A stretch of DNA of 64,000 bases from Diphasiastrum complanatum (lineage: Eukaryota; Streptophyta; Lycopodiopsida; Lycopodiales; Lycopodiaceae): contig CM055093.1 in the NCBI GenBank assembly GCA_029204225.1, forward strand, positions 20,434,595 to 20,498,594, given 5' to 3'. This document shows, piece after piece, positions 247-53,489 of the stretch. The position numbers were made by a program, and so were the translations under genes. The notes under the pieces are model-generated. The model had not been told where the DNA came from. It saw only the letters and a program-made list of their open reading frames with translations, and searched no databases. The stretch's first letter is position 1. Every line of letters begins with the position of its first letter.

Positions 247-593
247 TCTCGTCAAAGGCTTTCTAATGGCACCGTAATCGTCTCAATTCGAGTTGTTGCT
301 CAAAAGTTACACTGTTTTTCTGTTGAGTTGCATACTATACTACAAATAAAATGGCTTATTTACGAGTTGCCCCCGACGCAAAATTACAGTTCTTTTAAAA
401 AGAAAAGAAAATCAATTTGAATGAGCTATGCTACGTAGATTTCAAATTTGAGTGTTTTGATTGGACCATGTGGAAGAAACTTTTGAGAAAAAAAATAAAA
501 GGTATATTTTTGAAAGGCCTCTTTTGTGCTCAAATTTTCTCTAATGTCTTATGCTCCTATGATGTACCTCAAAACTCTTTTCCCTAGCTTCCA
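247..593. other. Non-coding stretch with a dispersed repeat
   Basis: No convincing gene. Bases 412-545 resemble 13683-13810: both contain tacgtagatttcaaat, then gattgg, then an A-rich run followed by a T-rich run. Both lie next to copia remnants, so this may be a piece of an older element. Confidence 0.4.
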
Positions 594-3897: not shown

Positions 3898-4545
3898 TTG
3901 CTTGTAGAAATCACTAGTAAGATGGGATCTGCTGGAGCATACCTTCTAGAAGCTAGTGAGAGATTGAATTCTACAAATTATGTTATTTGGAAGGTTAGGA
4001 TGGAGTCGCTCTTGGTGCTCCAAGACCTTCATGAGTTCTTGATTGAAGATGAAGATGAACCTCTAGGTGCACATGAGTTAGATAGATACAAGAAGAGATC
4101 TAGGCTTGCACTTCATTATGTGAAGATGAATGTGAGCAATGATTTGTTGAGAGAAATATCAACATGTACTAGTGCTAAAGAGGCTTGGGAGTCTTTAGAA
4201 TCAATCTAAGAATTTAGTAACACTTCAAGAGTACTCATGCTTAGAAATCAGATTTTGCAAAGCACGAGGAGAAGTGAGAGAGTGCACATGATTATGTACT
4301 CAGAATCAAGTCTCTGAATAGGGAGTTGGTTCCATTGGAGAGAAGATTCATGATGGAGAGCTTGTACAAATTGTCCTTAATGGTCTAGAAGATGAATTTG
4401 CAACTTTGGTCCAAAGTTTTGCCATCCAAGACACTTTGCCAACTATAGAAAACCTTCACAGTGTATTAGTGGCTAAAGAGTGTAGGATGCTCCACACCAA
4501 GGCAAGAATGCATTAGAGGAATTCTCAATATCAAAAAGACTTCTT
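3898..4545 (+). pseudogene. Ty1/copia gag remnant
   Basis: The first 103 codons (3898-4206) read as a clean copia gag N-terminus: ASERLNSTNYVIWKVRMESLL (the DUF4219-like start), then RSRLALHYVKMNVSNDLLREI and SAKEAWESLESI (UBN2-like). A stop at 4207 breaks the frame. The rest of the capsid region can still be followed in other frames to about 4500 (residues like LRNQILQS, 'ALQSVLV'-type text). No zinc knuckle or pol follows. It resembles the gag at 17531 and 63129 but is more diverged. Confidence 0.8.
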
Positions 4546-5093
4546 AAGGAATGCCATGTAGGATATACAAAAATATCAAAATAAATAAAACAATGTTGTT
4601 TATTTGCTTGCCCACACCACTCCCAAGGCCTCCCCAACTCCCAATGATCTAACCACAGTGTCTATAGTCATAGTTAAGAACTGTTAACAGTTCACAGTAT
4701 AACTTGACTAAATTCAAAAATATTCCCTCCATTGGTTACAAAAAGGGAATATTTTCACTGGATCTAGAATATGACCGCCATCCCCAAATTCGAATCAGAA
4801 AAAATTGCAAAATGTTTACATATGCATTCCTTCCACGAGAATGGAAATATGAGCGCCAACTACCTATTGGAATGAAAAAAATGAGCAAAATTTCCAAATT
4901 TGAATCAAGCATACAAGCATGGAGATTGGATTGATCGTACATAGTATATAATTTAATCAAAGATGAGTATTTTGTTCTGCTTCATAGAATCTGGTCATAG
5001 TACTTTGATGCAACTGATTACTCTATTATTATTTTGATGATGACATTATATCATCTACATGTGGATATCCCTGCTGATTTGGCACCTTTGTAG
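4546..5093. other. Intergenic, left edge of the 5.1-13.4 kb cassette
   Basis: No gene recognised. Short frames at 4704-4934 (plus) and 4736-4960 (minus) have no family resemblance. A small palindromic motif, gaactgttaacagttc, lies at about 4678-4693. I looked for a terminal inverted repeat matching 13.36-13.7 kb and found only weak GTAACTGT/ACAGTTAC-type similarity. Confidence 0.35.
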
Positions 5094-7567
5094 AGAAGAG
5101 GAGGCAAAGGAGTTCAAATATCTGCTAAAGATCGTTCTCGTTACAGGGCAGAAGGAAAGAAAAACGTGGATTTGTGGACAGATAGAACATTATATCCACA
5201 AGATCCAAGCACTTTGACACATCCCACATTCTCTTCAATAACTCATTTAGTTACATGGATATGCAATGGACATAGTGGATTACTAGGATATTGTGAAAGA
5301 TTGCAAAACCATGGAAAACAACTTTATATGAATAAAGTTCACTTTTTAGAAGGTGAGTTAATTCGGATATCCTCTTATTGTCAAAATAGAGATTGTCATC
5401 TCCAAAAGACATTAGAAGAAAATGAACAACTTAAAAAAAATAATGAATCATTACAGAAGATAGCAATCAATATCAAATTAGAACTAGAGCAAATGCAATC
5501 AGTCTTACAGTCTGTTCGTATTGAAAACTTACAATTACTGAAGGATGTGGATTTGGTAAAGAAGAAGGCTGAAAGTAAGAAGCGAAAGCGACAAAGTTGA
5601 AAGGATATTCAAACGCTTTCAAAAGGAGGTTATCGAAATAGAAGGATTTGTGCATTCAAGTAAGCATATTCTAAATTTTGTAAGTTTTTCAATGACATTT
5701 GGATTTAATTTCAGCTATGGTGATATTCTGTTAACTATCTATTTTTTTTGCAGATCTGCATTAGTAGCTCCTCGGAATATTAAAGACAACGCTTCACTAG
5801 GAATGTCATTGGGCACAATATTGACTTGCAAATTCACTGAGCGTATCATGATGAACAATAGGATCTCAAATGTAAAGTGTAAAATAGCAGAATCTTTGAT
5901 GGTGGACATTCAAAATATTTTAGATAAGACTAAAGTTCAGGGTGCTTGTGATTTTGCAGGTATTAGTAGGGAAGCATATGCAACAATATTTAAACTAACT
6001 AGAGAAGCTTTTAAGCAAGTTCAAATTAGAAAAGTCCCAATCCCTAGGACATACCAATTGAAGAAAGAGAGGGATACATTAAACATAGGTATGCGTAAGA
6101 TCACTGGAACTTCATTTCATATTGAGGAGGTGTATGAAACTGATGGAAGATTGATATTCTATAATTCATCAAACAATTTATTTGTTGATCTAAATTACTT
6201 GCTGAGATACATCGTCACATTCTATGATATAACCTATGAAAAGGTGAATGGCAGAATAATCATAGTACTTAAGTTAGATGAGTCAGAAATTGTGAAAGGG
6301 CAACAGATGGAAAGGGTTAGTATAACTCTCATGAATGGTGCTCTATCCCAAACAGAGAACCAAGAAGATTTCAAATTCAATGTCCAGTCAGAAAATGATA
6401 TATATGGTGGCTGGCAGCGTTTCAGGTAACTAGCCTCATTATTACATTACATTAATTGAATAGTATTAATACATTGTAAACTAAGTATGATTAATTCTTT
6501 GGACAGGTGCTGAAAGAGGATCATGATATATTATCATGGATATTCTCAAGGACATCTTATCCTAGGATCATCAAGGACCATATGGATGGAGGATTTCTCA
6601 ATGTTCCAGGAGTTGGAGACTTCAATGTTGAATGGCACTTAGCAGGTGATTTGAAAACATTGAAATGTATGTATAATGTCTCTCACGGTGCTACATCAAA
6701 ACACCCTTGTTTGTACTGCATGAAAAAGGCAAAAGATGTAACTAGGAGTACAAGAATTACTAGAAAATATGCAGATCCAAACTGGAAGCCTGTGTTGTCT
6801 ATCCCCTTAAAAAATGTGCATGTTTGCACTCTTTATGCAAAAGTTAGATTAATAGAAAAGATCATTTATCTTCATATAGTTTTTGCTTTGTCAAAATTCA
6901 AAAAGATGAAAAGCTTTCAGGAAAGAATGGGAACATGCCAACTAAGCCAACCATAGGAGGAGCAAAAGCACGTCATTTTCTATCAAATCATTCTGGTAAG
7001 GCTTCTAATATTCAACACTCATTCTTGACAGATATTATTGCTGCCACTCAGGACTTCGAGAAAGACGGCAAAACCAGAGTACTAAAAGTTGATGTATGGA
7101 AAAAGCTTGATAGTATGATTGTTATTTTAAGAAAAGAAAAATACTCTGATATTGATAAGAAAGCTATCCAAAGGACTTGTGTCGAGTTTGTTAATGCAAT
7201 ATCAAAAGCATGGGGAGAAGATCACATCACTCATTACATGGTTAGTATAAAATTTTCAAAATGCTTTCAAATTTTCATATATATATAGATCTAAACATAA
7301 GACTAACATTATGATTTTGACATATGTAGCACATACTAAGAGATCATAAAATATTTTTTGCAAATACATATGGAAGCTTGAGTGTATGGTCATCACAAGG
7401 GATAGAGAAGTCACACTGGCTAGCACGAGCAGCATTTCATTGAAATACACAACATGGAGGAACCAATGAAATACGAAACTACATTTGTCAATTGTTTCAG
7501 TGGTTCTACCGTAGAGTTCAGATTCGACATATAACAAAGTCCACACAATACAACAAGTTTAGATAAG
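5094..7567 (+). pseudogene. DDE transposase-like gene, multi-exon, broken
   Basis: I see five coding blocks. 5094-5600 is basic, with a long coiled coil (LEENEQLKKNNESLQK onward) and a KKRKRQ tail. 5754-6425 follows ttttttttgcag and ends at a gtaact donor. 6507-6840 follows ttggacag. About 6930-7239 ends at atg/gttagt. About 7330-7567 follows catatgtag. Possible catalytic acids are D in VLKLDESEI, D in WHLAGDLKTLKCMYN and E in SSQGIEKSH. The second is followed by GATSKHPCLYC, a C-x2-C pattern I associate with uncharacterised RNase-H-fold transposase-like proteins. Exon phases do not join cleanly, there is a frameshift before 6930, and a TGA stop interrupts the last block at about 7439. The family assignment is inference; a dead transposase fits best. 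Confidence 0.5.
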
Positions 7568-7714
7568 CATGCAAGTTCATACAGGAACAGAAAATTAGAT
7601 AATTGCTGAGTAGAAAATCATCATGACATGTTCAAAATTGCTTTGCAAATTCATTGAACAAGAGAGGAGCAATACCCAATGTAGATGTATTGATTGTATT
7701 TTACAAAGTGTCAA
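7568..7714. other. Short gap between convergent genes
   Basis: About 150 bases between the end of the transposase-like gene and the 3' end of the minus-strand gene. A shared 3' untranslated or terminator zone is plausible, but no specific signal was recognised. Confidence 0.3.
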
Positions 7715-9227
7715 CTATTCATCATCAGATCTTGTATCAGATTCTATGGTAGTATTGTCATGAAGAAATTCTCTGCTAGCATATGCATCTAATAGATGTG
7801 CATTATCCTTATTTACACTAAGCTCAATATAAGTGGAATACAATGAATAATGGGAGCTCCTTAAAGGAACATTCCCATCAGTAAAGCCTAAAATGTTCAA
7901 AACATAAGATCTTTTGACAAAAATGATCTTACTTGTCTTAACAAATTTATGTCCTCCTGAATAAAATGATAAAGCTTTAACTGCCATTATAAGACTCTCC
8001 TCGACTGGGCTTAGTTTGGAATGAGCAATACAGATCTCACTCTTCAAAAAATGCAGAAGACAGTGGCCTAGTCCACTGTCCCTCTGAAACGAGAATGCGT
8101 GTTGTCTGAAACCACCTCGTCTTGCAAGCAAAATCATCTATTATGAGAGCATCCTGCAATAGGAAATATGTTAGCAAAAACACATTCAGTGATTGAAAAT
8201 ATTCAAATACAAAGAAGATTAAACAATTACACATTCTTCATCATCAGCAACAACCAGATCAAGATGATCAATATAATGACCACGTACTGAAGTGGAATCA
8301 TCAGTGAAATGCATTAATGATGGACGAGGGAAGCCCATCTGGGATTGAAATGCCGTGAATTCTTCATCAGATGGTCTGCCTTGCCCATCCTCAGCTATAT
8401 TTGATAAAGTCTTATTCAAGCATTCTTCACCGGTCATAAGACCCTCCTCATCATCAAATCAATACCAGCAACAATGTCATATGTCTCAAAATCTACAAAG
8501 TCGGAGAATTCGGAAATTGTGCCGGATAATAAGCATAGAACCTCGTCCTCACGATAGTCAAAAAATTCATAAATTAGCAGTAGTAAAATATACATCATCA
8601 TTAATATAATATACAGGCAAATTGAAAAGACATTTCGAATCCTCCATAGATTTGGATTCATCATCAGATGTATTTTGGCCAATGAAAGAATCTCGGAGAA
8701 CATCAGTATTTAAATCAATGAAGTCACTTTTTTTATCAGGAGTGACGATAAGAAAGTGACTAATACTTAATGGCTGACTGAACAGAGGAGGGTGCAAAAG
8801 GAGGGTCAACAACAGGAAACTCATCATCATCTGGGATCTGAACTAAAAGAAAAAGTACGAAACCACTGTAATATTCAACCAATCGACATTTCTTGTTGCA
8901 ATACGGACACATAGAACTACTTTTGAAAAGATCAAACAATTTGGTGAACATTCTATTCAGTCTATGTCTAAAAGCTGGGAAGAAATGAACAAGATCAGTA
9001 TAATGCATGTACTGGAGTTGACCTATGGAGAAAACAAGCTTGCTAAGTATATCTCTGAATCTGACATAATCTTCATAAAATACGTCAAAATTTGGTTGTG
9101 CACTCTTGAAAACATGTAGATAAGACCTGAATAGGCTGTGGAAGTAGTCCAGATTTTCAGTAATCCCAACTTCACTCAGAAATGAACTCAAGCCTGATTC
9201 TCGTGAGGATGATAAGGAAGAGGCCAT
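7715..9227 (-). pseudogene. Unknown acidic protein gene, frameshifted
   Basis: The frame starts at the ATG at 9227 (MASSLSSSRESGLSSFLSEV) and runs 156 codons to about 8760. It includes a possible zinc-binding MCPYCNKKCR. The coding look continues downstream in other frames: 8570-8760 (acidic, TSDDESKSMEDS), 8437-8570 and 8219-8437 (VVADDEECV). A probable intron follows; its acceptor cctattgcag precedes an exon that starts at 8153. A final 140-codon frame (8137-7715) ends in IESDTRSDDE. Three or four frameshifts are needed to join everything, so the gene is probably dead. I recognise no family. Its promoter side faces the H3-Ulp1 gene across an 830-bp divergent region. Confidence 0.45.
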
Positions 9228-10059
9228 GGCAGTAGCGTGAATATCGCACTTGTGCGCGCGAGAGAACTGAACCAAAACTAACAATCAAAATGGCGCAGAA
9301 GATGGATATGTACGACAGACAGATACAGAATATCTCACTTGTGCGTGAGTAGGTATACTTGCAAGCAAACAGACAGAAATGGGCGTGCACAAAAGCGATA
9401 TGTCGCAAATTTCGAGAACGCAAAAGGTAAAAAATTATTCCATTTCCGTGTCATTTATACTAAATTTTTGCACGTGTGGTCAACGGACTTATGACACGTG
9501 TCTACTTTCAATTCGACAACAGGCGTAGGCACGTGTGAGATGACACCTGCACATGTGTGAAATGACACCTAAACACGTGTCGTGTGTTCATTTGAGTGCT
9601 TATAAACACGTGTCGCTCTCGCATTCGGTCGTACAAATCTCACACATGTAGTGTGATAGAGTGACACATGTTGCACTCGCATTTGTCCGTACAACTCCCA
9701 CATGTGTGACAGGACGTTCTTTCACACGTGCGAACCCTGATATAAAATCACAAATTTTGATGAATTTTTTTCACTTTTTTTTTCGCTCCGCATATCGCAT
9801 TTGTGCGCGCCCTTCACGATCAAAATTCCTCCTACTACCTTCCATGCGCACAGGTCCGATACGTCTTCCTACATGTCACCCCATATCGCACTTGTGCGTC
9901 TTTCCTCAAATCTAATCGTTCTCTCTGATAATCGGCTCGCATAGGTCCGATATAACATACATTCTATTCGTACATAGCAGTCCTCTGCGAGTTCTTTATC
10001 ATCCCTTCCTTCTCATCCTAACCTTCATGCACAAGTCCGCTATCACATAGTTCACGCCC
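9228..10059. promoter_or_regulatory. Divergent promoter region rich in CACGTG palindromes
   Basis: This stretch separates two divergent genes. It holds six CACGTG G-box cores (9471, 9495, 9530, 9574, 9607, 9725) plus CACATGTG variants at about 9550, 9650, 9667 and 9700. A second motif, gcacttgtgcg or close to it, occurs at about 9246, 9793 and 9888, and 'aggtccgatayg' occurs near 9852 and 9943. G-boxes bind bHLH/bZIP factors in plants. Their density here is far above chance for this AT-rich region. Similar CACACGTGTG boxes occur in the copia LTRs of this window. Confidence 0.6.
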
Positions 10060-11789
10060 ATGGATAAGAGAAAGCAAACAAGGAGAGACTTCTTCTCTCC
10101 TGGCTCATCCTCATCTCCTGCGGTTGCCATCACACCCCCTGCTAGACCTAGAATGCTCAACCACAGCAGGTGGCTCTCTGAGATACGCAAGTATCAGAGG
10201 TCAACAGCTCTGTTGATCCCAAGAGCTCCATTCTACCGTGTTGTCCGGAACATAACAAGAAATGATCTCGGACAACACGTTAGATTCGCAGCGAGTGCTC
10301 TTCAGTGCCTTCAGGAGGTTGCTGAAGATTATATTAGCCTTTTTTTTGAGAATTCATTTTTGTTTGCCATCCATACCAAGAGGGTTACCATAATGCCCAA
10401 GAATTTTCAGCTTCTGATCAGAATGAGGGATAGGTACTGTAGGTTACATGTATCTCAGCCTACTGCTCCTAGACCAACTCCTGTAGATAGGACTCATCTT
10501 CTTACGAAGCGTCCTAGGAAGCAGACAGCCCCCAAGCGTGCTCCTAAGAAAGTGAAGCCTATTCCAGAATCCATTGTAGATAATGCTGCTGTTGATAATG
10601 CTATAAATATAGCTACCTCTGTTTTGGATACTCCTAATATTGCTGTAGATACTACACTTCCACCTCCTCCTCCTCCTCCCAATTTCTATACATATATAAA
10701 TTCGGATGATTATCTTAAATTTGAGAAAGACATATCGGATGCTATAGATGCAATTGGTACTCCTTTTTGTTTTAGACTAGAAGAACTTGATTTTAGTATT
10801 AATTTTAGAGTTCTAGATTGCCTGGATCTCAAAGACAGACGGGCTTCTATGAGTGATCCTATGATGGAGTCCGGGCTGACACTCTTGCAATTTAACATTG
10901 CAAGAGATTCATCAAACGAGTTGTTGGTGCTGAGTAACTTTCTGCTCCAGGCTTTCAAGGAGAATATTGACACATTGTCACAGTGTCTGACAAGTGGATT
11001 CACACCAGCAACAAAGTATCTGGTCATTCCTTATCATACCAAGTAAGATATATTAAGTGCTTCTTCTTGTTTTATGCATTAACATTGACATTTTCAATTT
11101 AAATAGTTCTCAGAATTGCCGCTAAAGTACTTTCAATCTTATTTTGCAGTGACCACTGGAGTTTAAACCTGATCTCTATTAAGAGATCTGTAAATAATAT
11201 TATTAAATGCTCTTGTGTCAAGATGAATTCAGCGAGAAATACGCATAAGGATGTAGATATATTCATTCCATATCTAAGTAAATATATTCCTATAGACGTT
11301 CCCCATTCTGTAGACTGGCAGATCGTCAGCTTGGAGGTAAACTCTTCTTTCTTAATAGCATTTTGAAATCAATTTTCCAATGAAATATTTTCAGTCTAAT
11401 TCATTCTGTTTCATAATTGATTTCTTGTGTGCTGAATTATTTTGCAGTCACCCCAGCAAAATAATTCATTTAGCTGTGGGTGGTACACATTTTACAATGC
11501 CAAGCTATTTTTTGAGTGGTTCATCCTTCAACAAGATGTTGATATTTCTAAGGTAATAAATTCTGTTTATTCTTATTTTGAAATCATGATTAGTTTTCTA
11601 TTCTGGTGATGTTATTGGCCATTATTAATACATGAATGTTCTATTTTGCAGTTTACACTTCTTGAGTACACATCAAGCCAGGTGTACAGATTTAGACAAG
11701 AAATTATCCTGAGTATACTGGCTCGGGCAAGGCTTCAACCTCCCGTTATTGATGATGGTGCAAAGGATGATGTAGTTGTACTAAATTAA
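10060..11789 (+). CDS. Histone H3-fold / Ulp1-type (C48) cysteine protease fusion
   Basis: Four exons (10060-11042, 11150-11336, 11448-11552, 11652-11789) have GT..AG borders and splice in frame to 470 residues. Residues about 30-126 match histone H3 throughout: EIRKYQRSTALLI, APFYRVVRNI, LQCLQEVAEDY, FAIHTKRVTIMPKNFQL. Loop 1 between the 'RNI' and 'RF' anchors is one residue longer than in canonical H3, as in CENH3. A basic linker (KRPRKQTAPKRAPKK, 150-164) and a run of seven prolines (201-207) follow. The C-terminal half reads as an Ulp1 protease: YLVIPYHTNDHWSLNLI with H330, and SPQQNNSFSCGWYTF with Q394 and C400 at the expected six-residue spacing. The usual catalytic Asp (about 17 residues after His) is not evident; the aligned stretch is IIKCSC. 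Ulp1-like proteases are known passengers of plant DNA transposons. Joined to an H3 fold the protein could act on chromatin or centromeric SUMO targets, but that is inference. Confidence 0.88.
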
Positions 11790-12114
11790 GATCAGAAAAA
11801 ATATAGATAGCATAAGAACAAAAATACATGTATAGACTTCATAGAAAAATATACATTGATATATCAAATGCTGCTCTAGTTTATGAATTTGGGAGCACAA
11901 AATACATGTATAGATGCCCAACTTGGGCTTTCATTTATTGAATGAAAGGGTGTATACACAGATTTTTACTAAAGTTTATTTGAAACTATTGTTCTCCCAC
12001 AATGGTGATTGTTGTAGGTAGATCTTTGCAGCACGTTATCAGCTCCTGTCTTTTTCGCATCCGTGACATGGCAAATATTAGTGAATGTGCAATTGTAAAT
12101 GATGACATTTTCTA
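11790..12114. other. Gap between convergent genes, small hairpin
   Basis: No coding sequence. The hairpin ctttcatttattgaatgaaag at about 11928-11948 lies in the 3' region of the H3-Ulp1 gene. Its role is unknown. Confidence 0.4.
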
Positions 12115-13355
12115 TTATTTTGTTCTATTTTGAAATGGCAATAAACGTAAAGTATTTACGAGTCTTCCATTGATGATAAATCTGAAATATGTTGGTAGAT
12201 TGGTTTGTAATAACATGAGCTCTGTTCTGATAAAATCAAGCTTCCAGTGCTCTTCCACCTCAACCATAGTCAAATATTCCTCATTGTAGATAATGCTTAT
12301 CTCCATTCGGTTTGTGTGACCATTTAGTTCAAAGTCTTGATCCAGTGGTAGCCATGTACCTTCAATTTTCTTGTATCTCTGGTAGCTAAATGTGAGACTG
12401 AGCATTTGCTTTTCGATATGATAACGAAAGATCATTGAAGACTTTTTAATCCTGCATTCTATGTCATTATTTGTTTTACTATTCTAGCCTTGATCCATGA
12501 GATCTGACAAAGTCTCATCTGATAAATCCTTGCAAACAAATAAAGTTGGTGTCCTACGAACACTAGCACTCGAGAAAAAATCAACAAACGTATGCAATGA
12601 GATAAACCAACTTAGGTGAACAATTTTGGAGCCTGTGCTAATCTTCATAGCATTTTTAATATCAATGAGTAGCTTGCATCTCAAGGATTCAGAAACAATG
12701 CTGTCAGGAGTAGGCCGGCCACTTTGAAAACTAGGCAATGGAATTGCTTCGAGCTTGTCAAAACCTCCATCTGTTTGCGGCATATATAAAGATTCATAAA
12801 AATAGATAACACAATCTGCAAGCTCCTTTGGACTTCTTCCTTTGTATTGTAGCTTTCCAACATCAGAGTGAATCACGTCTAATATTCCTACAAGTGATTG
12901 TGCGGGCTCCCATTCACTTATGCATGATGGATATAAATCTGAAAGAAAAAAACAATGTTGAAGCATTTAAATCATAATCTGAAGAGCATCAATAAAGGAA
13001 ATCACCTATGATTGTTGTAGAGTGCATATGTTTTGATATACTTACAATGACATTTTTGATGATCATGAGGATTGATATCATGTACTTTGATTTCTGAATG
13101 CATATATGCATGTTGCACTAAGATTTCTGATATCGATTGATCTCCCGGGGTAGTCTTAAACTCCAAAATTTTTGCTTTCCAATAAGATTTGTAAGTCATT
13201 TTTGCTCTTTTCTTTTGTCGAAAATTGCCCTTTGATGATGGATGCAGCAATACCCATGAGTTCTTCGTATATTTTGTTGGCTTCCAGTTATTAGCTTCAT
13301 CTTTCTCATTGTAAAGAATCACAAAATCGATTGTAGATCTGGGTCTTCTCGCCAT
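12115..13355 (-). CDS. Unknown cassette protein, 377 codons with one in-frame stop
   Basis: Exon 1 (13355-13046) starts ATG, MARRPRSTIDFVILYNEK. A 107-base intron (13045-12939; gtaagt donor, ttctttcag acceptor) joins in phase to exon 2, YPSCISEWEPAQSLVGIL onward. A TAG at 12484-12486 ends the frame after 254 codons. The same frame then stays open for 122 more codons to 12115, including EGTWLPLDQDFELNGHTNR and YNEEYLTMVEVEEHWKLD. The relatives at 15813-16070, 36965-37222 and 49090-49330 keep that second part, so it was once coding. TAG may be a point mutation, a true stop before a second cistron, or read through. No known domain recognised. The gene converges on the H3-Ulp1 gene, and its five occurrences in the window point to a mobile family. 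Confidence 0.6.
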
Positions 13356-13791
13356 TGCTATTTTCAAAGCTTGGGCGCCAAAAATCTCTCTGATATGTTA
13401 CTTGATTTTAATTTTTCGTATCACATTTAATCTAATGTGAATGCCAACATAGTCACAGTTACTGCGTATACCATATTTTATGTAACTGTACATACTATAT
13501 TTCTATAATTGTAACTAGTATAGTTAGAAATTTTCATTATATTAACCAGCATAGTAAAGTAAATTTAACTTGAGATATTGACGTCAGACAGATTAGCACA
13601 TGTCGGGCAGGAAAAAGAAACCAATGGGATATGTCCATGCTGCCCAGACACAAATTTCAAAGTTTTCTATATTTTATTTTTTAGTTAATTTGAACTAAGT
13701 TACGTAGATTTCAAATCTGTGCATTTTGATTGGGCCTGGTGACGGTCAAAACTAAAGAAAAAAAATAAAAGTATCTTTACAAAGGGTCTTT
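13356..13791. other. Intergenic, right edge of the cassette
   Basis: AT-rich, no gene. It may contain the right end of the cassette, but no clear terminal repeat pairs with 4.6-5.1 kb. Bases 13683-13810 repeat the element fragment seen at 412-545. Confidence 0.35.
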
Positions 13792-15381
13792 TTGATATTG
13801 CAAACTCCTCTAATGAGTTCATTGTCTTTGAAGGATGGAGATGAGAAAGACAATTTCTCATTCAAGGGAAAAAAGAATACCAATGGAAAGAAAAAGCATC
13901 CCAACGAGGCCAAAGAAGAGGATGATGCATCAAGCTCAAAGGACAAGTCAAAGCAAAAATGCTTCTTTTGTGGAAAGAAGGGGCATTATGCATTCGAATG
14001 CTACAAGAGGCTAAGAGCAGAAGAGGAGGAGGACAAACAAGGGAACCTTGCATATGAAGAGATGGAGATGAGGAGATCTCATCTTTGATGGCATTTACAT
14101 CCACTCCAACAAGCAAAGGCAACTGAAAGGACACTTGGTGGATTGATAGTGGGGTTAGCTCCCACATGGCTTTCCAAAAGGACACATTCTCAACCTTACA
14201 CTCATTCAATGATGCTAAAAAGTTTGTTTTTACTGCAAGTGATGGAGAGTGTCGAATAGATGGTGTTGGTAACATATCTTTATATCTAGAATCCTCAATA
14301 AGTATGGATCTAGAAAATGTCCTTTATGTACCATCAATCACCAAGAATATGCTTAGTGTTGGTCAACTCTTAGAAAGTGGTTTGAATGTCCACTTTAATC
14401 TTGGTGTTTGTTTCATCTTGAAGAATGATGTTTGCATTGCAAAGGGATTTAAACATGGAAGATTGTTTAAGTTGGAAGCTAGTGTTGCTTTTGAAAGAAT
14501 GAGCTTGGCAAAGGAGGAGATCACTCAAGAGCAGATGTTGGCAATGTGTGATCTTGCTTGCATTAAGGAGGAGCATCAAAAGAAGGAAGATCTTGAGGAT
14601 CAGTCTCAAAGCATGAGAGTTCCAAGGGAGTCCTCAATGACAATGGCCGAGTCATCAAATTGCATGCAAATTGTCCATTTAAGTGTGCATCTTGCAAGGA
14701 TGGTGAACATTGGAGAGTCTACTATATTTGAATACTTTTTGGATAGTATCAGTAAACATGGAGTGACTTGTTGCTTATCTTTAAGATCTATGATGTTTAG
14801 TACTTTGTATGACAAGACAATGAAAATTGATGTTTTCAAATCTCCATTTGTTGTTGATAAAGCAATTTCATTTGATAGCTATTTTTGTAATTAGTATGAA
14901 TAGTGTCATAAAAGATGAAACATCATTTGTATTGGAAATATTTGGGTCCACATGCTTTGAGCATGATCATTCCAACGTAAGGACCAAAGATTATCCTGTT
15001 TCAATGATAGAAATAATGGTAGTGTTTTGCTCTTCAAGTAGAGATTGTAGAATCGACTTGTTGTCCACCAAAGAATTTGTCAATGGTGGCAATGTGATCT
15101 TTCAAGAGTGGAAGATTTATAAACTTGAAGAATCATGTTTGGATCGACACCTTATTCAATTCATTGATGGTTTGAGGTCAAGTCAAGTGGAGGAGCAAGC
15201 TCAAGACCCGAGGACTCCAAGAAGAACCATGAGTATCAAGATGGAGCCATCAGGGCTCAATCATGTGGATCAAGCAAGACAAGTTGTCTTTGGCAACATT
15301 GTGTATGCACTTAATTTTTTAATTGATGTATCTTCAAGTGCACAAAATGCCTTGGAATCCATGGCTTGGCACGATGTTTAG
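13792..15381 (+). pseudogene. Internally deleted Ty1/copia: gag end, protease, pol hinge
   Basis: 13792-14085 holds the gag C-terminus with a CCHC zinc knuckle (KCFFCGKKGHYAFECYK). A stop precedes a frame from 14166 that matches the protease region downstream of a decayed 'WWIDSGVSSHM' (about 14130): KNMLSVGQLLESGLNVHF. There is no integrase core. From about 15090 the frame jumps to the region between integrase and RT: EEQAQDPRTPRRTMSIKMEPSGL, then NALESMAWHDV, where a functional element would continue into RT. RT, RNase H and LTRs are absent. This shares the deletion style of A1 and A2 but is a separate copy. Confidence 0.75.
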
Positions 15382-15812: not shown

Positions 15813-16070
15813 CTACTTCCTACAAACAGAGCAAAAGTCTGCATAGTTAATGAATGAATAGAATTTGAAGTACTCAGGTAAAAGATCTTTGTATATTAGG
15901 ACAAGCTTTGTTCTACCATAATTTAGGCTCCGATGTTCTTCCACTTTAATCATAGTTAGAACCTCTTTATTGTATATAATGTGCACCTCTTTTCTATTTG
16001 TGTGACTGTCCAATTCAAGATCTTGATCTATTGGTGTCCAAGTCCCACTTATTTTTTTCATCTATGGTAA
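15813..16070 (-). pseudogene. Fragment of the 12.1-13.4 kb cassette gene
   Basis: Minus frame GTWTPIDQDLELDSHTNRKE, YNKEVLTMIKVEEHRSLNY matches the second part of the 377-codon gene (GTWLPLDQDFELNGHTNRME). It ends where the truncated LTR of A1 begins. The fragment breakpoint (catctatggta) is shared with the copies at 37.0 and 49.3 kb. Confidence 0.75.
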
Positions 16071-26490: not shown

Positions 26491-26760
26491 AAAGGAACCA
26501 ACTGAATCAAATGGCTTTTGCCTAGTACTTACTTTCATTCAATTTTTCACATCTAATATTAATTTTGACACAATACTATTAGGAGTAAGCCATTCATCAC
26601 CACCAAAAGTTCACAATGGAATCTCTTCAAGCTTTCCTAAACTACCATGCATATCCAGAATGTATTTGAATTAATAGAAAAATATATATTGTAAAACATC
26701 AATAATGTCTTTTGCATTCATGGTGGGTGCCTTCACTTAAATAAGCTTTATGAGATTTTA
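26491..26760 (-). pseudogene. Cassette-gene fragment (middle part)
   Basis: On the minus strand the text LGKLEEIPL and TPNSIVSKLILDVKN can be read. It corresponds to FDKLEAIPLPSFQ and TPDSIVSESLRCKLLIDIKN of the 12.1-13.4 kb gene. Stops and indels are present. Confidence 0.6.
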
Positions 26761-27059
26761 GAAGATGATTATGAGAGCATTCCCATTATGTAACATAGCT
26801 CATTTAAAATAAAAAATAGAAATAGATTTTCAAATTGCCAGTTTACAACATGAAAGCATTACATCAGTTGGATTTGCCTATGTTGAACATGCCAATCTGT
26901 AGATGGTATTATCTCAAGTTAAAATAATGCAAAACTAATAACTATACTGGTTCAGGTCACAGTTTGACAATAAGAAAAGTAACTGTATGTTGTTATTGTG
27001 ATCCTATCACCTAGTTACATTTGATAAGACTGATGGAACTTTGAATCTAGAACTACACA

Positions 27060-27320
27060 AATTTGAGAATTTGGTGCTCAGCTTATGGCAATCACTATGG
27101 CAAGAAGACCTAAGTCCAAAATTGAATTTGTGATTTTTCAAAATGAGAAAAATGAAGCTGGCATTTGGATATTTTATTCTTAGATATTTATATCCATCAA
27201 GCATAAGTGAATGGGAGGCTATACAACCGCTTGCATTCATTCAGATATTGGAAAATTGCAATATAGGGGAAGAACTTCGAAAGAGCTTGTAGATCATCGC
27301 ATTTGAATCCTAGCAAAAAA
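27060..27320 (+). pseudogene. Cassette-gene fragment (N-terminal part), inverted
   Basis: The plus strand reads MARRPKSKIEFVIFQNEKNEA (start near 27098), then HSDIGKLQYRGRTSKELVDH. This matches MARRPRSTIDFVILYNEK and HSDVGKLQYKGRSPKELADC of the 12.1-13.4 kb gene. It points opposite to the neighbouring fragment at 26491-26760, so this copy was rearranged after it moved. Confidence 0.75.
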
Positions 27321-28029
27321 AAAAAAACAAAGACTGTATTTCTAACGATTAATAATTGGAGAAATAAACCAACTCATTCTAATGCTCAAGCTCACCCCAA
27401 AATTAGTGATATGTCATTTTTTAACGAATCATCACAATAGCTTATTGTATCACGACAAATTAAAAAGAAAAAATTAGATTGACTTGAGCCTAACTAAAGC
27501 CTAGAGTTTCACAAAGTTACATAAAAGGGCAAATGTTATGCCAAGAAGCTTCTCAAAAAATTTCTCATAAATTGTTATAATGCTTAAAACAAGTGCCATT
27601 AAGACAAAAGTGGGGAAGTGTTGAAGTGCATTGATGTTGGTCACCAAGTAAAAGAGAGATAGAAAAAAATCACACGAATCTTACAAAGGGTAAGGCCTAG
27701 AGTCTCTCAAACTTTTTGCCCTTTCCTTTAGAGTACTTGTCGAGGGGAAGATCAAAAAGCCTTCAATGCTAGGCTTTACAATGTACATATATTTCAATCT
27801 AGTGGAAAAAACCTAAGGGATTGTGTTGGCATTTCACTTCATATGTTTGAAGTGATTTTAATCAAGCAAAGGACTTCATTCCTTTGGAAATCATGGTTTC
27901 CGCTTTGTGCATGGATTATTTTATGGAAATAAATACCATGAGCATCATCAATAGAATACAATATACTTACAAACCAACTAAATTATTCTGGGAAGGGATA
28001 TTGAGCATATCTGCCTGTCACAAGGTTTC
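27321..28029. other. No recognisable gene
   Basis: AT-rich stretch with a run of 12 A at about 27317. No repeat or frame of note was recognised. Confidence 0.35.
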
Positions 28030-28610
28030 TGACTAGAAAATTTCAAGCAAACTCAAGGATAGTTAGAATTGTAGTAATATATTAAACTCTTTTTTAAAAT
28101 CTTCAAATCTATAAAGGTAATTTCTAAGTAGAACAAGTTCCAGCAGACTCAAGGAAAGTGAGAAACTCTTTTTTAAAATATTCAAATCTATAAAGGTAAT
28201 TTCTAAGTAGAACAAGTTCAAGCATACTCAAGCAAAGTGAGAAACTCTTTTTTAAAATATTCAAATCTATAAAGGTAATTTCTAAGTAGAACAAGTTCAA
28301 GCAGACTCAAGCAAAGTGAGAAACTCTTTTTTAAAATATTCAAATCTATAAAGGTAATTTCTAAGTAGAACAAGTTCAAGCAGACTCAAGGATGGTGAGA
28401 ATTGAAGCAGTCGACCATTCTACTTTAATTTTGCTAGAATTTTCAAATTTTTGTCAAGGTTTTCTGATCATGAGTAACTAACGTTCGGGCAGACTCAAAG
28501 GACAGTAGGAATTGCAGTGATGTATTATACTTTTGCCAAAATTTTCAAATTTGTGAAGGTTTCCGAGTAGAAAAAGCTGAAGCACACTGAAAGATAGTGA
28601 TAATTGGGTA
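28030..28610. repeat. Tandem array of about 79-base units
   Basis: Four almost identical units lie at about 28083-28161, 28162-28240, 28241-28319 and 28320-28400. Each holds aaactcttttttaaaat(a/c)ttc, taaaggtaatttctaagtag and caagttc(a/c)agca(g/t)actcaag. More diverged units flank them on both sides. The array ends about 180 bases past the 3' end of the gene at 28788-29543. Confidence 0.85.
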
Positions 28611-31311: not shown

Positions 31312-31564
31312 CTAGTAAGCAAGCATAATCCTTTCCATGTATAAAGAAAAAGGGACTTGATGCCACATGCTTATACATTTAGGACGACGTCTTTAAGTTA
31401 CATGTGGCTTCCAAGTGTATTGTATCAGGATGCTAGATTTATTAATGACTTTTGAAGAGCTATGTTTGATATTTTAGGCACGACTTTGAAATAGGCTTCC
31501 TCTTTCCACCTTCAAACAAAGTGAATTGACCAATCAAAGCAAGGGATTGAAAATAAACTTCTAT

Positions 31565-31815
31565 GGGAAGAATTCCTTCCTATTGCAAAATTTCCTTGTG
31601 ACAAAATTGTGAATGCTGTTTTTGGTAAACCCAAATTACCATCTATGGTTATGTTTAAAGAATTTCTGTTTTTCCTATGGAATTTGATCATGATAACAAA
31701 TAATCTTATGGCATATTACGGTTGCAATATCTTGAGCACAAATAAAAACCAAAAGAAGCATGCAAGTTTGTGTCAGAGGGTGATAAACTACCAAGAAGGG
31801 ATTGTGTTCTCTTGA
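31565..31815 (+). pseudogene. Uncharacterised exon-like remnant, left-arm copy
   Basis: Frame with WEEFLPIAKFPCDKIVNAVFG, then KPKLPSMVMFKEFLFFLWN, NLMAYYGCNILSTNKNQKK and SLCQRVINYQEG. The right-arm copy (54311-54610, minus) keeps the same residues plus CVLLKLGKK. Conservation of the amino-acid text suggests a once-coding exon. No family recognised. Confidence 0.5.
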
Positions 31816-32523
31816 AACTTGGCAAGAAGCGGCTAAGAAAGAAAAAAGGTAAGCTCGTTGGCTATGACATTTTTTTGATGCTTTTCAAATTAAAAAAATC
31901 TCACTTGTGAAGAGGTACTTGTAGAATAAAATATCCATGACAAGTTCCATATGATCTTGTTGAAGAAGTATGTTGGACTAGTACAACACAAGTTCCTCAA
32001 GACCGGTGACATGTCTATTGTATACATCTCTTAGCTTATATTGCCCAATCTCAAGATTGGTGATATGTATATAGTAGAGCCATTGCATGCTCATGTTTTA
32101 AATTTTCAACTTTAGCTCACAATTGATGTACTCAACTTCAATCTACGCAATAGATCGGTTGTTTGCTCCTTATATTGGACTGTTTTAGTCTGAGGAATTA
32201 CTTTTGAATCTCCCACCTCAAATGGAAAGTTGACCATGCTATCATGGCCATTCACCCCCAATCCACCTCTATTAAACTGTACAATTTAAATAGTCCCAAT
32301 AATTAAAATATATCTTGGCAATCTAATCAGTAAGCTTGGAAATATTCAACTTGACCGTAGTCCATTGAGTGTAAAAATAATAATGATCAAGATTAATAAG
32401 GGTACTATGTGATTGTGTGTGGATTATTGACCTCGCAATAAGCTCACAAGAAAAAAAGAATCCATTACCACATATGGATGATGTTTTAGATCAATTAAAC
32501 GAAATTGTAAAAATGACTTGATC

Positions 32524-32615
32524 ATAAACCCTAACCCTAAACCTCAAACCATGAACCCTAAACCCTAAACAATGTGCTACCTTTTTTAGATTGCTACCCT
32601 AAATCCTAAACTCAC
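32524..32615. repeat. Interstitial telomere-like repeats (CCCTAAA)
   Basis: Degenerate copies of accctaaacc, including aaccctaaccctaaacc and gaaccctaaaccctaaac. This is the Arabidopsis-type plant telomere motif. The right arm has the inverse at 53371-53450. Confidence 0.75.
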
Positions 32616-34454
32616 TAAACTTGCAAATAACTTACTCATAGATTTCCAAGGCCCTTTGCTTTCTTGCTTCTATACATATCCAATTGATATATTACTAGTT
32701 TATCTTATTCTACAACCCCATGTTCGTACCTCTCCACAATAGTCATCCACTTGGCATCAACATCCACATTGAAAATCGTGAACACATGCCTAAACCCTAA
32801 ACTCAAAACCATTCCGAATGCAGCAGAATGCAGTAGCAGCAATGCGTAATGCATCATCTTCCATCTAGCAAGACAAAAACCGTAAAACAATTATACTTGA
32901 GAGGAATCAAAAGTAGTGCATGACCTCACTCAATCAGTCATTTGATCCATCAATTTATACACAAATCAATCAAAGGCTCCTACTATCAATATCGCATCAA
33001 TTCAATAGCTAAATAATCATATTACCACTCACAAATCTAAAAGCAGCATAAAAAAGCACTTGAATAGATCAAATAACAATTCATTGATAATTGTAGGAAA
33101 TCATAATATGCTTAGAGAGGAGCATATGCATCATAGAAATTGGTAAAGAGAACTATGTCTACATTTGCTAAAGCAATTGTCTAAAATAAGTCTTGTCCAT
33201 TGCATCACAATGTGTGGGTGGAGTTGTTGACCATACTCGAAACCTAGCCACTACGTAGCGACATCTTGGGAGCTTGCTTCTCGCTTAATGTTGCCCAGAT
33301 GGCATTGCTAGACTGTATATGTCGTGTATAGCCTACTAATTGTGTAACTCAATATGAAAAAAAAAGGACTCTGAATTAAGTTAATATTAAATAGCTATTA
33401 ATTACTCGTAATATGAAAATGTAGTTTTGTAGCATATAATAAATTGTCTTTGATAAATTTTGTATATAAAAAAATATTCTTTTTAAAACGGTATCGTATA
33501 TATGTTTTGTTCATTTGAAGAAATTTTTTTTTCCAATGTTCATGACATATGATAATGGAAGTTATTACTAGTTGAATAATGGGCTTTCAATTGGAGACCT
33601 TGATAAAATCATGTGTCTAATCATGGCTATGACACCAATTATTGATCTTGATGGACCTCATTTGTCAAGATCTATGAACCAAAGCAATCTCATGAATATG
33701 TCCACATGCACACTGTTACAAACTCAAATACACGTAAAAATCATATGTTGAAACATGGATTTTGACGAACAACGTTCGTCAAGATCCATGAATGAGAGCT
33801 CTTTCTATCTCTCTCTCAGTTTTAATATAAATTAAAATGATTATCATATTAAAGAATGTTGCAAAAATCCAAAGTATGTCTTATAAGATGGTTTTAATAG
33901 ATAACAATTAAATTTTGTTACAATTTATAAAGCTACTTAAAATTTTATAAATCTTGAACTTCATAAAATGATTTATTAATCCATAGAAATAAGAGTATTG
34001 ATATATATTTTTAGTTTTTAAAAAACTTAAAAAATAGGTGGTTTTTAAAATGACATGCACAAAAAAAAGGGTTTTTCAAAAGTGGGTGCATTTTTAGGAG
34101 TTTTCACAAAAAATCTTAAATACCTTAGGAGAACCTCGCAAACTTTCTCACTCAACTCGCAACAGTATTTTGTGGAGAAACTAATATCTAGCACACATCA
34201 AGGACCATTTGTCCAAAAAGAAACAACTTTGAGACTCTAAGAGTCCTGGTTACAATTGTTAGTAACCATTATTATAATTATCAGACTTGTAATCATGTAC
34301 TTGATACATACTTTTGTAATATTTTGTAGATATTACAATGACCATCATGATCAATCATGATGCTTTTGATCTCAAAAGCGATCTTCATCAATGTACAAAT
34401 GCACGTTCAGTCTGTTGGAATATCAATCCACACTCTAGAGAGAACTATCAAATA

Positions 34455-34527
34455 GGGTGGATAGCTCAGTGGTAGAGCATCTCATTCAGTATGAGGGAGG
34501 TCCTGGGTTCGAATCCTAGTCTGTCCA
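34455..34527 (+). tRNA. tRNA-like sequence in the TRIM 5' LTR
   Basis: Folds as a 73-base cloverleaf: acceptor GGGTGGA/TCTGTCC (with G-U pairs), D arm GCTC/GAGC, anticodon arm TCTCA/TGAGG with loop TTCAGTA (CAG in anticodon position), T arm CTGGG/CCTAG with loop TTCGAAT. A box TAGCTCAGTGG and B box GGTTCGAATCC fit Pol III consensus. There is no long variable arm, so a working tRNA-Leu is unlikely. Confidence 0.75.
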
Positions 34528-34714
34528 TCCAAATTATGATTTGTGAATTTCTAACATGGTATCAGAGCCAAGTTAGACCTAACAGTTCATGGTGTCAAAG
34601 CCATGGTTAGGTGGCCCAAGTTGTGGGGCATGTGACAGTTAGGACCCCAACTAAGTGTGGCTTGAGGGGGGGTGTTGGAATATCAATCCACACTCTAGAG
34701 AGAACTATCAAACA

Positions 34715-34787
34715 GGGCAGATAGCTCAGTGGTAGAGCATCCCATCCGATATGAGGGAGGTCCTGGGTTCGAATCCTAGTCTGTCCA
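34715..34787 (+). tRNA. tRNA-like sequence in the TRIM 3' LTR
   Basis: Same fold with acceptor GGGCAGA/TCTGTCC, A box TAGCTCAGTGG and B box GGTTCGAATCC. The anticodon loop is TCCGATA, with C instead of the universal T33 and one mismatch in the stem. This favours a promoter role over decoding. Confidence 0.75.
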
Positions 34788-34979
34788 TCCATATTATGAT
34801 TTATGGATTTCTAACATAATTTAATAAAGTATGTTCTACAATAATGTCCCAGTATCATTCAAAGTTTGGTTGTGATCTGAATAAGTACTATAGTTGTTGA
34901 GGCACATCTTATCGCAATGTGAAATTTATGTATTTTCGCAATATCAATTGGATTTATTATATTGATTGTATGTTATCTC

Positions 34980-35166
<187 letters not shown>

Positions 35167-36199
35167 CCTCCCTATGCCTCTACCCTTGCGTCCTCCCTGT
35201 GCACTCCCTTTGCGATATTAGCAGAGTAGGAGTACCATATGGGGAGAGTAGGAGTGTCATATGGGGGGAGTAGGAGTGACATAACGAAAGAAAGAGAGGA
35301 GAGTGGTGAACAGGTTTGGATTTTGAATCCTTCCCAACCCTTTACACTTGATTTTCCATTCATAAAAATGCATTTTTATTTTAACCTTTCCAGTAGAAAG
35401 TATGTTAATTTAAAAGATCTTCAGAGTGCCCTTAAAATTTAGTGAGATATTTGATAATGAAAGTCCGTTTTGTTTAATACCTTTCACCATGAAAGTATAT
35501 ACTTACACTTTGTCATATATACTTATACCAAATTGATGCATACTATGTCATGCACCCTACTCCATGCATAAAAGATTCCATTCCACATTTTTGAACTAAA
35601 AGATGTTCATGTAGGAGGATGCACCCATGCCACCATGCATGCATCCTCCTATCCCATGCATAGGCATAATTGTCACACACAAATAAAACCATGACAAAAT
35701 AATCCTCAAACATATAGATTGGTTTTTAGCTTTATTTAGCTTTTTTTCTCTCTCTCTCTGTGACGTTTTATGTCAGCAAAGCATGACATTTTTGTCAGCA
35801 CACACACAAGGTCACACAAATAGTTTTTTACTATATAGATTTGTGTGTTGGTATCAAATTATTCTGAGTTTGGTCTTGACCTGAACAATTATTATTACAA
35901 TCGTTATTTTAGAAAATCTTATTGCGAACTATGTGAATGTATATGAACTCGGTGCAGGAATGTTTGGATTCAATGTAATTGTATATTAGCTCAATTGTTT
36001 ATTAGTTGTTGCACAAAAAGAAGTCATTAATCAATCTCAAAATGATTGTAGTTATTTTGAAACATCTATTTGTTTAATGATTGATATCAGCTTGCACTAT
36101 AACCGAAGAAAAACTTTGACTTTTAGTTATTCTTCAAAAGGGGGGCCTTTGGATGGCATTTTCAAAAAAAAGTCCAAAAAAAATGGAAAAGTCATAATC

Positions 36200-36956
36200 A
36201 CTTGATCCAGTGTTACTTTAGATCAACAACAGATTGATAATCAAGATCAATGTCAAGATCTAAGGCAAAAACACAAATCTACATGCATACATTCATCACC
36301 TAAGTATTTTCACACGTGTGGAAAGTACTCATGAAAAAAACTAAGTATGAAAATCAGTTGCTCTCGGGTAGAGAGAGAAAGTGCCCATCAAGCCTCGAGT
36401 AGAGAGAGAAAGTAAAATAGTCGCAATTTTCCAAATCTCCATTAACTCTCAAAAACTCAATACAAGAATCCATCTACATGTAGTATATCGAGGTAGTCCA
36501 AGCTCAATTCCTATTGGACCCCTTTTCTAGCACCCCTCTAATCCTATTGGATGAGTGATTCATCATCTCTTGATCTTGATTGGACCCATCTAACAAATCT
36601 TTCACTTATGATTGGACCCTTGACTCTTTGCCAACACATTGACTTTGATCACTCATCAAATCTAACTTTGACACTTGTAAACAACCTAACTAGCTCGAGG
36701 TACATCATAATTGACTTTTGGCCTAATGATGATAATACATGTGTACTTGACTATTTGACCTCTAAAGCCAAAATTGGTGCTATCAACTAGCTACATCAAG
36801 ATGCTTAACTACAAAACTTTGTGACACCCCTAAATTCAACATGATTAATCTAATTTGACTATTTTTCACATGTGGGAACATGCTCCACATGTGTGAGATT
36901 TACTCACAAATAAGGATTGCAAAATAATAAAGCTATATTTTGCCATATTTTTCACA
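36200..36956 (-). repeat. Copia LTR, left-arm copy
   Basis: On the minus strand it starts TGTGAAAAATATGGC at 36956 and carries paired LTR landmarks (cacacgtgtg at 36311, 'ctctctacccgag' inverted near 36370). No primer site or PPT is adjacent. The inverse copy is at 49339-50090. Confidence 0.7.
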
Positions 36957-36964
36957 ATATTTAC

Positions 36965-37222
36965 CATAGATGAGAAAAATTAAGTGGGACTTGGATTCCA
37001 CTAGATCAAGATCTTGAAATGGAGAGTCGCACAAATAAAAAAGAGGTGCACATCATATACAATAAAGAGGTTATAACTATGATTGAAGTGGAAGAACATT
37101 GGAGCCTAAATTATAGCAGAACAAAGCTTGTCCTAATATACAAAGATCTTTTACCTGAGTACTTAAAATTCATCATAAATAAAAAATTTGATAATAATTC
37201 ATTGCTTATTAGTTTCTACTAA
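36965..37222 (+). pseudogene. Cassette-gene fragment, left-arm copy
   Basis: Reads ESRTNKKEVHIIYNKEV and EVEEHWSLNYSRTKLVLIYK, matching the second part of the 12.1-13.4 kb gene. It abuts the start of the LTR at 36956. Confidence 0.75.
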
Positions 37223-40002
<2,780 letters not shown>

Positions 40003-47225: not shown

Positions 47226-49089
47226 AGCGTTCTAAGTAATTGTTTGACCTTTCTAAGTGGCTAAGAAATTGTTTCGAAGTGTTGATTCCCTTTTACTTAA
47301 GGATGCAATTGTTCTTCTTAGTTGTAGTTGCATTTTAAACAATCTAGTAGGTATTATAGAAGTAGTAAAGTTTTTCAGTTCATCTTGTACTTTAGAAAAA
47401 AAAAACCAACCTATGCTTCCCTGAACCTATGACTTCAAGACACTTTACACTAAAATTAATCTAGAAGATTTAAAGTTTCATGTTGATAAGCTAATTCACT
47501 TTTGTACATCTATTGCATTTAAAGTCCATAGCTTTGAGTTCTTAGGTCTCTGGGGGCCTTGGGGATTCAAACCTGTTGACCTTTGGAGCAACTTTGGAGT
47601 GACCTAAGAGCAATCTTTTCACTAATTGATTAGAGTTATAACAATGTTAGGAGCGCATCTTGTATCATCAAGTTTATATGGCCAAATAAAACTAGCAGAT
47701 GGTCTGTACTCTTGTAGGCCACAATGATTCTTTCCATTCTAAAACTCCCCTGATAACTCTTTTTTATATGAGAGTTATTAGGATGAAGAGAATCACATTT
47801 TCCTACATGAGAAATGATTGACCATTTGCTATTTGTATCTGATGGTATAATCTTGATGCTACAAGATGTGCTCATGACATTCTTATAGTCTCACTAGGAA
47901 AAAGCAAAACACATATAAAATGTTTCATGAAGATAGTTTTTCTGAAAGCTTAAGATCCTTAATATTTAAAACATATAATGCTTTGGCACTGTTCTTTCAA
48001 AAATTCCCCTAAATTAATATGTTCATCTCCACATTTTGTTTATCATGAGAAAGAGAGAGAGAGAGTACATTTTTGCACGCTCACCACATGTTGAATTTTT
48101 GAGTCAATGGCTTAGAAATGATATACTTGTTTTCATTTGATCTGTTTTTGAATTTCTATCACTTTCCTTGGTTGCTTGTAGTAATTTTTCACTCCTTCTA
48201 TCCATTATGTCTCGTAACACATCCCCTAGTAAGAGATTGTGCCATAGTCAGCGGTCATGCCATTTTTCTTCCATGAATTACTCAATTACATGGATCAGTT
48301 GTCTTCCTTGCAACAAGAGAGACTCATCGAGAGTCTCTCATCGAGGCTCCCACTGAGGTGGCGTACATGTACGTGTACAGCCACAATATGAAAGCATTAC
48401 TTGAGTTATTGGAGAGACAACGAGTGAGGATAAATTATGATGCTGCTTTTGAAGTATGGCAAGTTTAAAATAATTTTTTTCTACATCAATCTCTTGCAAT
48501 TTTGGTGGTTATATAGTGAGATTCGTACAGACAGGTACAATATCATATGATAGCTAAGTGTTTAATGACAGGTTCTTGTTGACTTTTCATCTTCTATGTG
48601 TAGTTGATGCATGATTTTTACATTGGTAGTGAAGCTAGATGTGATCTCCAAATTAGCTAAAGATCAAAGGGCATAATTAGGTCATTTGGATCTAAATTTT
48701 TTCGCATACTCTCTCTAAGGCCTTCTAAACTAGATTATGTACATATTCAAACAAAGATGGATAATTTGAAAATACCTAAGCTGAATAGATAGATAGATAC
48801 ACAAATATAGAGAAATATAGATACATACAAAATATAAAAAAGTTATTCATATAGTTATACTAAATCCCAAGTTTGGGTGATCTTTTATTAATTAAATATA
48901 TGAGTTTGTACAATTAATTGCAAGCAATTTCATTATTCTTCTACTACATTGATTGTTGCAAGAAGATTGTTGCAGTTTGTTATTAGATCATGTCTTTTTT
49001 GTACATGTATGAAAACCAGTGTGTTAGTCTAAATATTCATTGCATAGGTCTATATTTTTTATGACTCAAAATTAGTAGAAACTAATAAG

Positions 49090-49330
49090 CAATGAGTTAT
49101 TATTAAATTTTTTTATTTATGATGAATTTTAAGTACTCATGTAAAAGATCTTTGTATATTAGGACAAGCTTTGTTCTGCTATAATTTAGGCTTCAATGTT
49201 CTTCCACTTCAATCATAGTTATAACCTCTTTATTGTATATAATGTGCACCTCTTTTTTATTTGTGCGACTTTCCATTTCAAGATCTTGATGTAGTGGAAT
49301 CCAAGTCCCACTTAATTTTTCTCATCTATG
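49090..49330 (-). pseudogene. Cassette-gene fragment, right-arm copy
   Basis: Inverse of 36965-37222, with the same frame (NKEVITMIEVEEHWSL region) and the same junction catctatggtaaatat next to the LTR start. Confidence 0.72.
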
Positions 49331-49338
49331 GTAAATAT

Positions 49339-50090: not shown

Positions 50091-50695
50091 ATCAAGTAAT
50101 TTTGGACTTTTCCATTTTTTTTGGACTATTTTTTGAAAATGCCAGCCAAAGCCTTTTCAAAGAATAACTAAAAGTCAATGTTTTTCTTCGGTTATAGTGC
50201 AAGCTGATATTAATCGTTAAACAAATAGATGTTTCAAAATAACTACGATCATTTTGAAATCGATTAATGACTTCTTTTTGTACAACAACTAATATACAAT
50301 TGAGCTGATATACAATTACCCCAAAACTTTCATGGTGAAAGGTGTTAAAAAAAGTGTAAGTATATACTTTCATGGTGAAAGGTATTAAACAAAACGGACT
50401 TTCATTATCAAATATCTCACTAAATTTTAAGGGCACTCTGAAGATCTTTTAGATTAACATACTTTCTACTGGAAAGGTTAAAATACAAATGCATTTTTAT
50501 GAATGGAAAATTAAGTGTAAAGGGTCGGGAAGGCTTCAAAATCCAGACCTGTTCACCACTCTCCTCTCTTTCTTTCCTTATGTCACTCCTACTCCCCCCA
50601 TATGACACTCCTACTCTCCCCATATGGCACTCCTACTCTGCTACTATCACAAAGGGAGTGCATAGGGAGGACGCAAGGGTAGGGGTGTAGGGAGG

Positions 50696-50809
<114 letters not shown>

Positions 50810-53450: not shown

Positions 53451-53489
53451 AATTTATGATCAAGTCATTTTTACTTTCTCGTCTAATTG

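Follow-up and report, generated by a model that had tools for sequence, protein, structure and literature searches.

Ulp1 domains in transposons are already known. In Ginger1 and in the Mutator transposases with Ulp1, a DNA transposon carries the domain (PF02902), which in Ginger1 sits on the transposase (both as described in a portion of PMC2836005). According to part of a 2026 review (PMC13317346), VANC proteins are the answer of VANDAL transposons to silencing, some VANC genes (KIU) have captured an Ulp1 domain, and the precise function of Ulp1 domains in transposons is unknown. For Arabidopsis, a portion of PMC10398659 describes how CMT2 and CMT3 place DNA methylation where H3K9 is methylated.

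We describe here a gene of Diphasiastrum complanatum, H3-C48, whose predicted protein joins a histone H3 fold to an Ulp1-type (C48) protease. Like KIU, at least as the review portion presents it (PMC13317346), this is a non-transposase transposon gene that combines Ulp1 with a putative chromatin-acting part; it differs in having an H3 fold where KIU has its VANC part. VANDALs are non-TIR MULEs, whereas the H3-C48 element has terminal inverted repeats, and the transposase-like product of its gene A lacks a MULE match. Unlike the transposase-borne Ulp1 of Ginger1, the one found here is on an H3 protein encoded by a separate gene (Ginger1 as described in that portion of PMC2836005). A literature search lying largely outside subscription journals and bioRxiv returned, among its best-ranked titles, none that dealt with an H3 carried by a transposon or fused to Ulp1.

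The gene lies in a stretch of 64 kb, hereafter the window. Four exons join in phase into 470 codons and a stop (1413 nt) spanning 10060-11789 of the + strand, as the original prediction had proposed, and are separated by GT-AG introns of 107, 111 and 99 nt:

10060..11042, + strand, exon 1: H3-like tail, H3 fold, linker and start of the C48 region
11150..11336, + strand, exon 2: DHWSL, the catalytic His motif (H330), and KMNS (N354)
11448..11552, + strand, exon 3: PQQ (Q394) and SCGWY (C400)
11652..11789, + strand, exon 4: C-terminal end and stop

Both domains proposed from the sequence are recovered by Pfam in the one 470-residue protein. The Histone profile (PF00125) matches residues 25-123 with 94.2 bits (E 8.7e-27; curated cut-off 26.4), and Peptidase_C48 (PF02902) matches residues 316-443 with 39.9 bits (E 5.4e-10; curated cut-off 20.7) and the genomic copy L018 with 42.2 bits. 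Solved structures agree: histone H3 is the best solved relative of the first part (E 1.4e-20), and DHWSL, PQQ and SCGWY align to Ulp1-like structures. We considered whether two neighbouring genes had been mis-joined. This is unlikely, because exon 1 spans both parts, its open frame starting in the H3 tail and continuing via the linker to just upstream of the catalytic His motif, and because other genomic copies repeat the frame and the splice sites. Among 4432 candidates that share words with the protein and have 0.55-1.75 times its length, none matched it at E <= 1e-3.

H3-C48 is among the genes of a DNA transposon that is present in many copies. The element, which encodes at least four genes (A, B, H3-C48 and D), and its surroundings are laid out as follows:

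350..546, no strand, right end of another, diverged copy of the element (65% identity to 13623-13815)
3901..4510, + strand, copia gag, left flank; the frame stops at the element edge
4511..13815, no strand, family I DNA transposon copy of 9305 bases with end repeats, splitting the copia gag frame
4511..4540, + strand, left terminal inverted repeat, 30 nt
5094..7570, + strand, gene A, transposase-like, broken in the window copy (from ORF frames and relatives)
8434..9227, - strand, gene B (from ORFs; first exon 8763-9227)
9238..10059, no strand, intergenic region between gene B and H3-C48, with an imperfect palindrome and CACGTGT motifs
12118..13355, - strand, gene D, three ORF pieces, with relatives also in family II
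13786..13815, - strand, right terminal inverted repeat, 30 nt
13816..15381, + strand, copia gag, right flank, with zinc knuckle and protease region; the frame resumes at the element edge

The terminal inverted repeats fit a cut-and-paste DNA transposon. The repeat CATTAGAGGAnTTnnCAATATCAAAAAGAC has two matches in the window and none in 100 shuffles, and in the intact relative L018 all 35 of 35 end bases are complementary. When the two copia flanks are joined, they match, by eye, the residue spacing of the window's intact gag copies. A target-site duplication was found neither in the window copy nor in L018, the two copies read at both ends.

Gene A has 47 relatives at E <= 0.1 (best 5.0e-126), one of them from the fern Adiantum nelumboides; KLDE and GDLKTLK are invariant across 19 relatives (alignment A1; window 5560-7570). 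The family has no Pfam or PDB match, and none of the 19 relatives matches a MULE transposase (Pfam, E 0.1). Genes A, B and D have no Pfam match over cut-off. For gene D we rejected two candidate identities: TnsA scores 18.5 bits against a cut-off of 26.5 and is absent from two family II relatives, and a BAH domain was an impression by eye to which profiles give no support. Gene B has relatives in 6 of the 20 loci fetched in the histone-profile search described below.

Gene B and H3-C48 diverge around 9238-10059. This region holds nine CACGTGT motifs on the two strands together (shuffle mean 0.29, maximum 3, 300 shuffles), and seven to 11 are found at the equivalent place in L018, L027, L026 and L028; the window has 43 further occurrences elsewhere. 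Aligned to its reverse complement, the segment 9289-9903 is 58% identical. The region may serve as a two-way promoter, as a binding array or as the target of a protein of the element.

Gene D-related fragments also occur at 15861-16058, 26515-27303, 36962-37216 and 49106-49333, which points to further remnants of this element group in the window. Separately, the window contains a long inverted duplication (31333-39176 and 47245-54844; arms of about 7.8 kb, spacer of about 8 kb, pieces 83-99% complementary) and a tandem repeat with a 79-nt unit at 28005-28478.

To place the gene among its relatives we searched the D. complanatum genome (1.74 Gb, 5176 contigs). PF00125 gave 153 matches. Thirteen score 163.7-165 bits, and the eight of these that were extracted are all canonical H3; the remaining matches, among those listed, score 82.8-109.5 bits. 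Twenty loci fetched from this lower group, in which the match is stop-free and the frames are 297-417 residues long, fall into family I, to which the window copy belongs (six), family I' (one) and family II (13). Three additional loci comprise another family II copy and two intron-bearing H3 genes, which we take to be H3.3. Searching with exon 1 gave at least 122 matches, 81-92% identical excluding the window copy, and searching with the family I' exon gave at least 134, 72-90% identical excluding the query copy; both counts are lower bounds because only the best candidates are scored.

The H3 parts of families I and I' are about half identical. C48 exon sequence was found in two of the four family I' loci read (L044, L045, L046 and L028). 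In L044 it lies behind the H3 exon and includes HWSL and a QQ...C motif, with a stop close to the Cys; L046 has the start of exon 2 after the H3 exon, followed by an interruption; L045 and L028 carry a gene truncated before it reaches the C48 exons. Since family I' loci also have C48 exon sequence, the H3-C48 fusion probably predates the split between I and I'. Family II (L009-L013, L016, L019-L025 and L031) encodes a protein with an MARTKQTAR tail (Asp or Gly at the K9 position), a long poly-Pro linker and a C-terminal H3 fold. TBLASTN found no C48 match in 13 of its loci, a search that a diverged C48 could escape. Family II shares gene D with family I, and in some loci transposase relatives as well. 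Three D. complanatum database records (P0077-P0079), annotated as hypothetical proteins, contain family II-type H3-fold pieces.

The protease part resembles SUMO proteases in its motifs. Its closest solved relatives are the Ulp1-like SUMO protease 6dg4 (E 7.6e-4) and yeast Ulp1 (1euv, E 1.3e-3), with which it shares His, Gln and Cys motifs in like order and at similar spacing; the overall similarity is weak (E about 1e-3), and in the PDB alignments no Asp of the C48 part aligns to the Ulp1 triad Asp, although a conserved Asn lies near its place. Exons 2-4 are present in 18 family I copies. All 18 retain the catalytic His, one Asn and the second Gln of PQQ, and 14 retain the catalytic Cys. SUMO is a plausible substrate.

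We surveyed residues of the histone part in 37 loci (19 of family I, four of I', 14 of II). Compared with the H3 and H3.3 of the host, the transposon proteins share the fold and many contact residues, and in families I' and II the tail start, but at position 9 not one locus has Lys (Asp in 29, Ala in four, Gly in three, Asn in one); families I and I' further differ in their C-terminal protease. At position 4, 35 of the loci have Lys. The tails read MDRRKQTRRD (I), MARTKSTA(R/H)A (I') and MARTKQTARD (II), or near variants.

Our preferred reading, offered tentatively and at somewhat less than even confidence, is that H3-C48 is a transposon chromatin or anti-silencing factor that enters nucleosomes or their assembly pathway, in the manner of an Ulp1-bearing VANC protein such as KIU. 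The H3 part would pair with host H4 and join nucleosomes, or the pathway that assembles them. It would thus be an H3 variant supplied by the transposon, with a tail on which K9 methylation would be impossible. The Ulp1-type protease, carried into chromatin with it, might there free proteins of silencing or repair from SUMO or a related modifier. Element chromatin would then stay open, or transposition would be completed. The K9-less H3 might itself be the shield. For family II, whose H3 likewise lacks K9 and for which no C48 turned up, only this shielding role would fit. Because K9, the residue of the silencing mark, is missing, the H3 may help the element to live in host chromatin, and the analogy with KIU suggests that a histone could here replace a sequence-specific binder in bringing an Ulp1-type protease to chromatin. 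Expression, nucleosome entry, protease activity, a SUMO substrate and an effect on silencing are all steps that we infer. The original prediction had raised, as an alternative, a transposon protein that targets chromatin: the end repeats and genomic copies establish its transposon part, and for the chromatin part the scheme above is our interpretation.

Another use of the same parts would be that the H3 fold directs integration by anchoring proteins of the element on nucleosomes or histone chaperones, with the protease acting on repair or transposition factors and silencing uninvolved. The transposon setting and the keeping of the H3 fold suit this, and a role for Ulp1 in the transposition process has been suggested (in a portion of PMC2836005). 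We nevertheless hold it to be unlikely: the H3 part is not on the transposase but in a separate gene, and this use leaves unexplained why none of the 37 loci has K9.

It may also be asked whether the fold still works as a histone, or is a plain domain for binding DNA, H4 or dimers, without a part in nucleosomes and with a relic for a tail. This bears on positions R63, R72, R83, H113, K115, R116, T118 and D123 of H3, which we take to be DNA or H3-H3 contacts. Two of them are altered in many loci, R63 being Pro in 35 of 37 and R72 remaining Arg in only 12, and the family I tail is degenerate, with KQTxR alone remaining of the H3 tail and its register depending solely on that match; all three observations favour the plain domain and count against an anti-silencing role. 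On the other side, R83 and R116 are each kept in 36 of the 37 loci, H113, K115 and T118 in all 37, and D123 in 34 (it is Asn in the window copy), and most loci of families I' and II retain the ARTK tail start. With so many contacts and tails kept, we find a domain of this kind quite doubtful.

A further objection is that H3-C48 is a functionless captured passenger that hitch-hikes with the element. We read 19 family I copies across the gene, 12 of them chosen for a stop-free exon 1. Eleven are broken by stops, frame changes or missing exons, which this objection would expect and which counts against the anti-silencing reading; the fused frame is open in the other eight (window, L018, L032, L033, L034, L037, L040 and L041), with Tyr replacing the catalytic Cys in L034 and the stop codon missing from its usual position in L041. 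The fused frame and the three introns persist in several diverged copies. Pooled dN/dS over seven open copies is 0.43 for the tail, 0.35 for H3, 0.80 for the linker and 0.27 for C48, values in which shared branches are counted repeatedly and which the picking of copies with an open exon 1 lowers. In the five pairs of open copies printed, dN is below dS in all five for C48 and in three for the H3 part; the case for constraint is accordingly stronger for C48 than for H3. The two exceptions, window-L018 and L037-L018, have H3 dN above dS with few changes; they too favour a passenger and weigh against an anti-silencing role. The C48 part, and the H3 part on deeper comparisons, are nonetheless slow-changing for their silent-site divergence. 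A passenger is improbable given pooled ratios below 0.4 in both domains against that of the linker, the H3 folds of three families and the retained catalytic residues.

The original prediction had also entertained a centromere-directed deSUMOylase, on the ground that loop 1 is one residue longer than in canonical H3. Comparison with solved H3 confirms this length for the window protein, and the extra residue is general to family I; loop 1 has the canonical length in families I' and II. A second likeness is the motif LIPRAPF, where the host H3 has LIRKLPF: LIPxAPF is presumably a CENH3-like trait, being present in plant CENH3 sequences. The four transposon sequences scored all give better alignments with canonical H3 than with plant CENH3 or human CENP-A. 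A tree built from 17 rows and 95 columns, three of the rows being provisional plant CENH3 sequences, unites families I and I' (99/98) and places no family with CENH3, its forks for family II and for the origin (H3 or CENH3) being open. Chromosome-placed copies (86 of the 122 in family I, 89 of the 134 in family I') are not clearly more clumped within chromosomes than uniform points, which were equally narrow in 0.145 (I) and 0.150 (I') of 2000 simulations. A host CENH3 was not found, the fetched PF00125 matches, among those listed, being canonical H3, H3.3 and transposon copies. With canonical loops in two families, H3-like scores, no grouping in a tree with open forks and no clear clumping, a centromere-directed deSUMOylase is very improbable.

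Returning to the anti-silencing reading, we count in its favour that this is a many-copy transposon gene with its fused frame open in eight of 19 copies, the pooled dN/dS, the kept catalytic and H3 positions, the C48 exons of family I', the keeping of K4 with the loss of K9, and the precedents of KIU and of CMT2 and CMT3; the unmatched triad Asp stands on the other side, beside the points noted above. In its most general form, which we regard as unlikely, transposon families would make their own H3 variants, with the nucleosome fold and the K4 end kept and K9 lost. Element chromatin could then accept active marks while being closed to H3K9 methylation, and two of the families would add a SUMO-type protease that strips silencing complexes from within the nucleosome. 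If the histone enters nucleosomes, the element would be rewriting the very substrate of silencing, which would offer a direct test of the role of H3K9 in transposon silencing in an early-diverging plant lineage and would give a reason for transposons retaining SUMO-type proteases.
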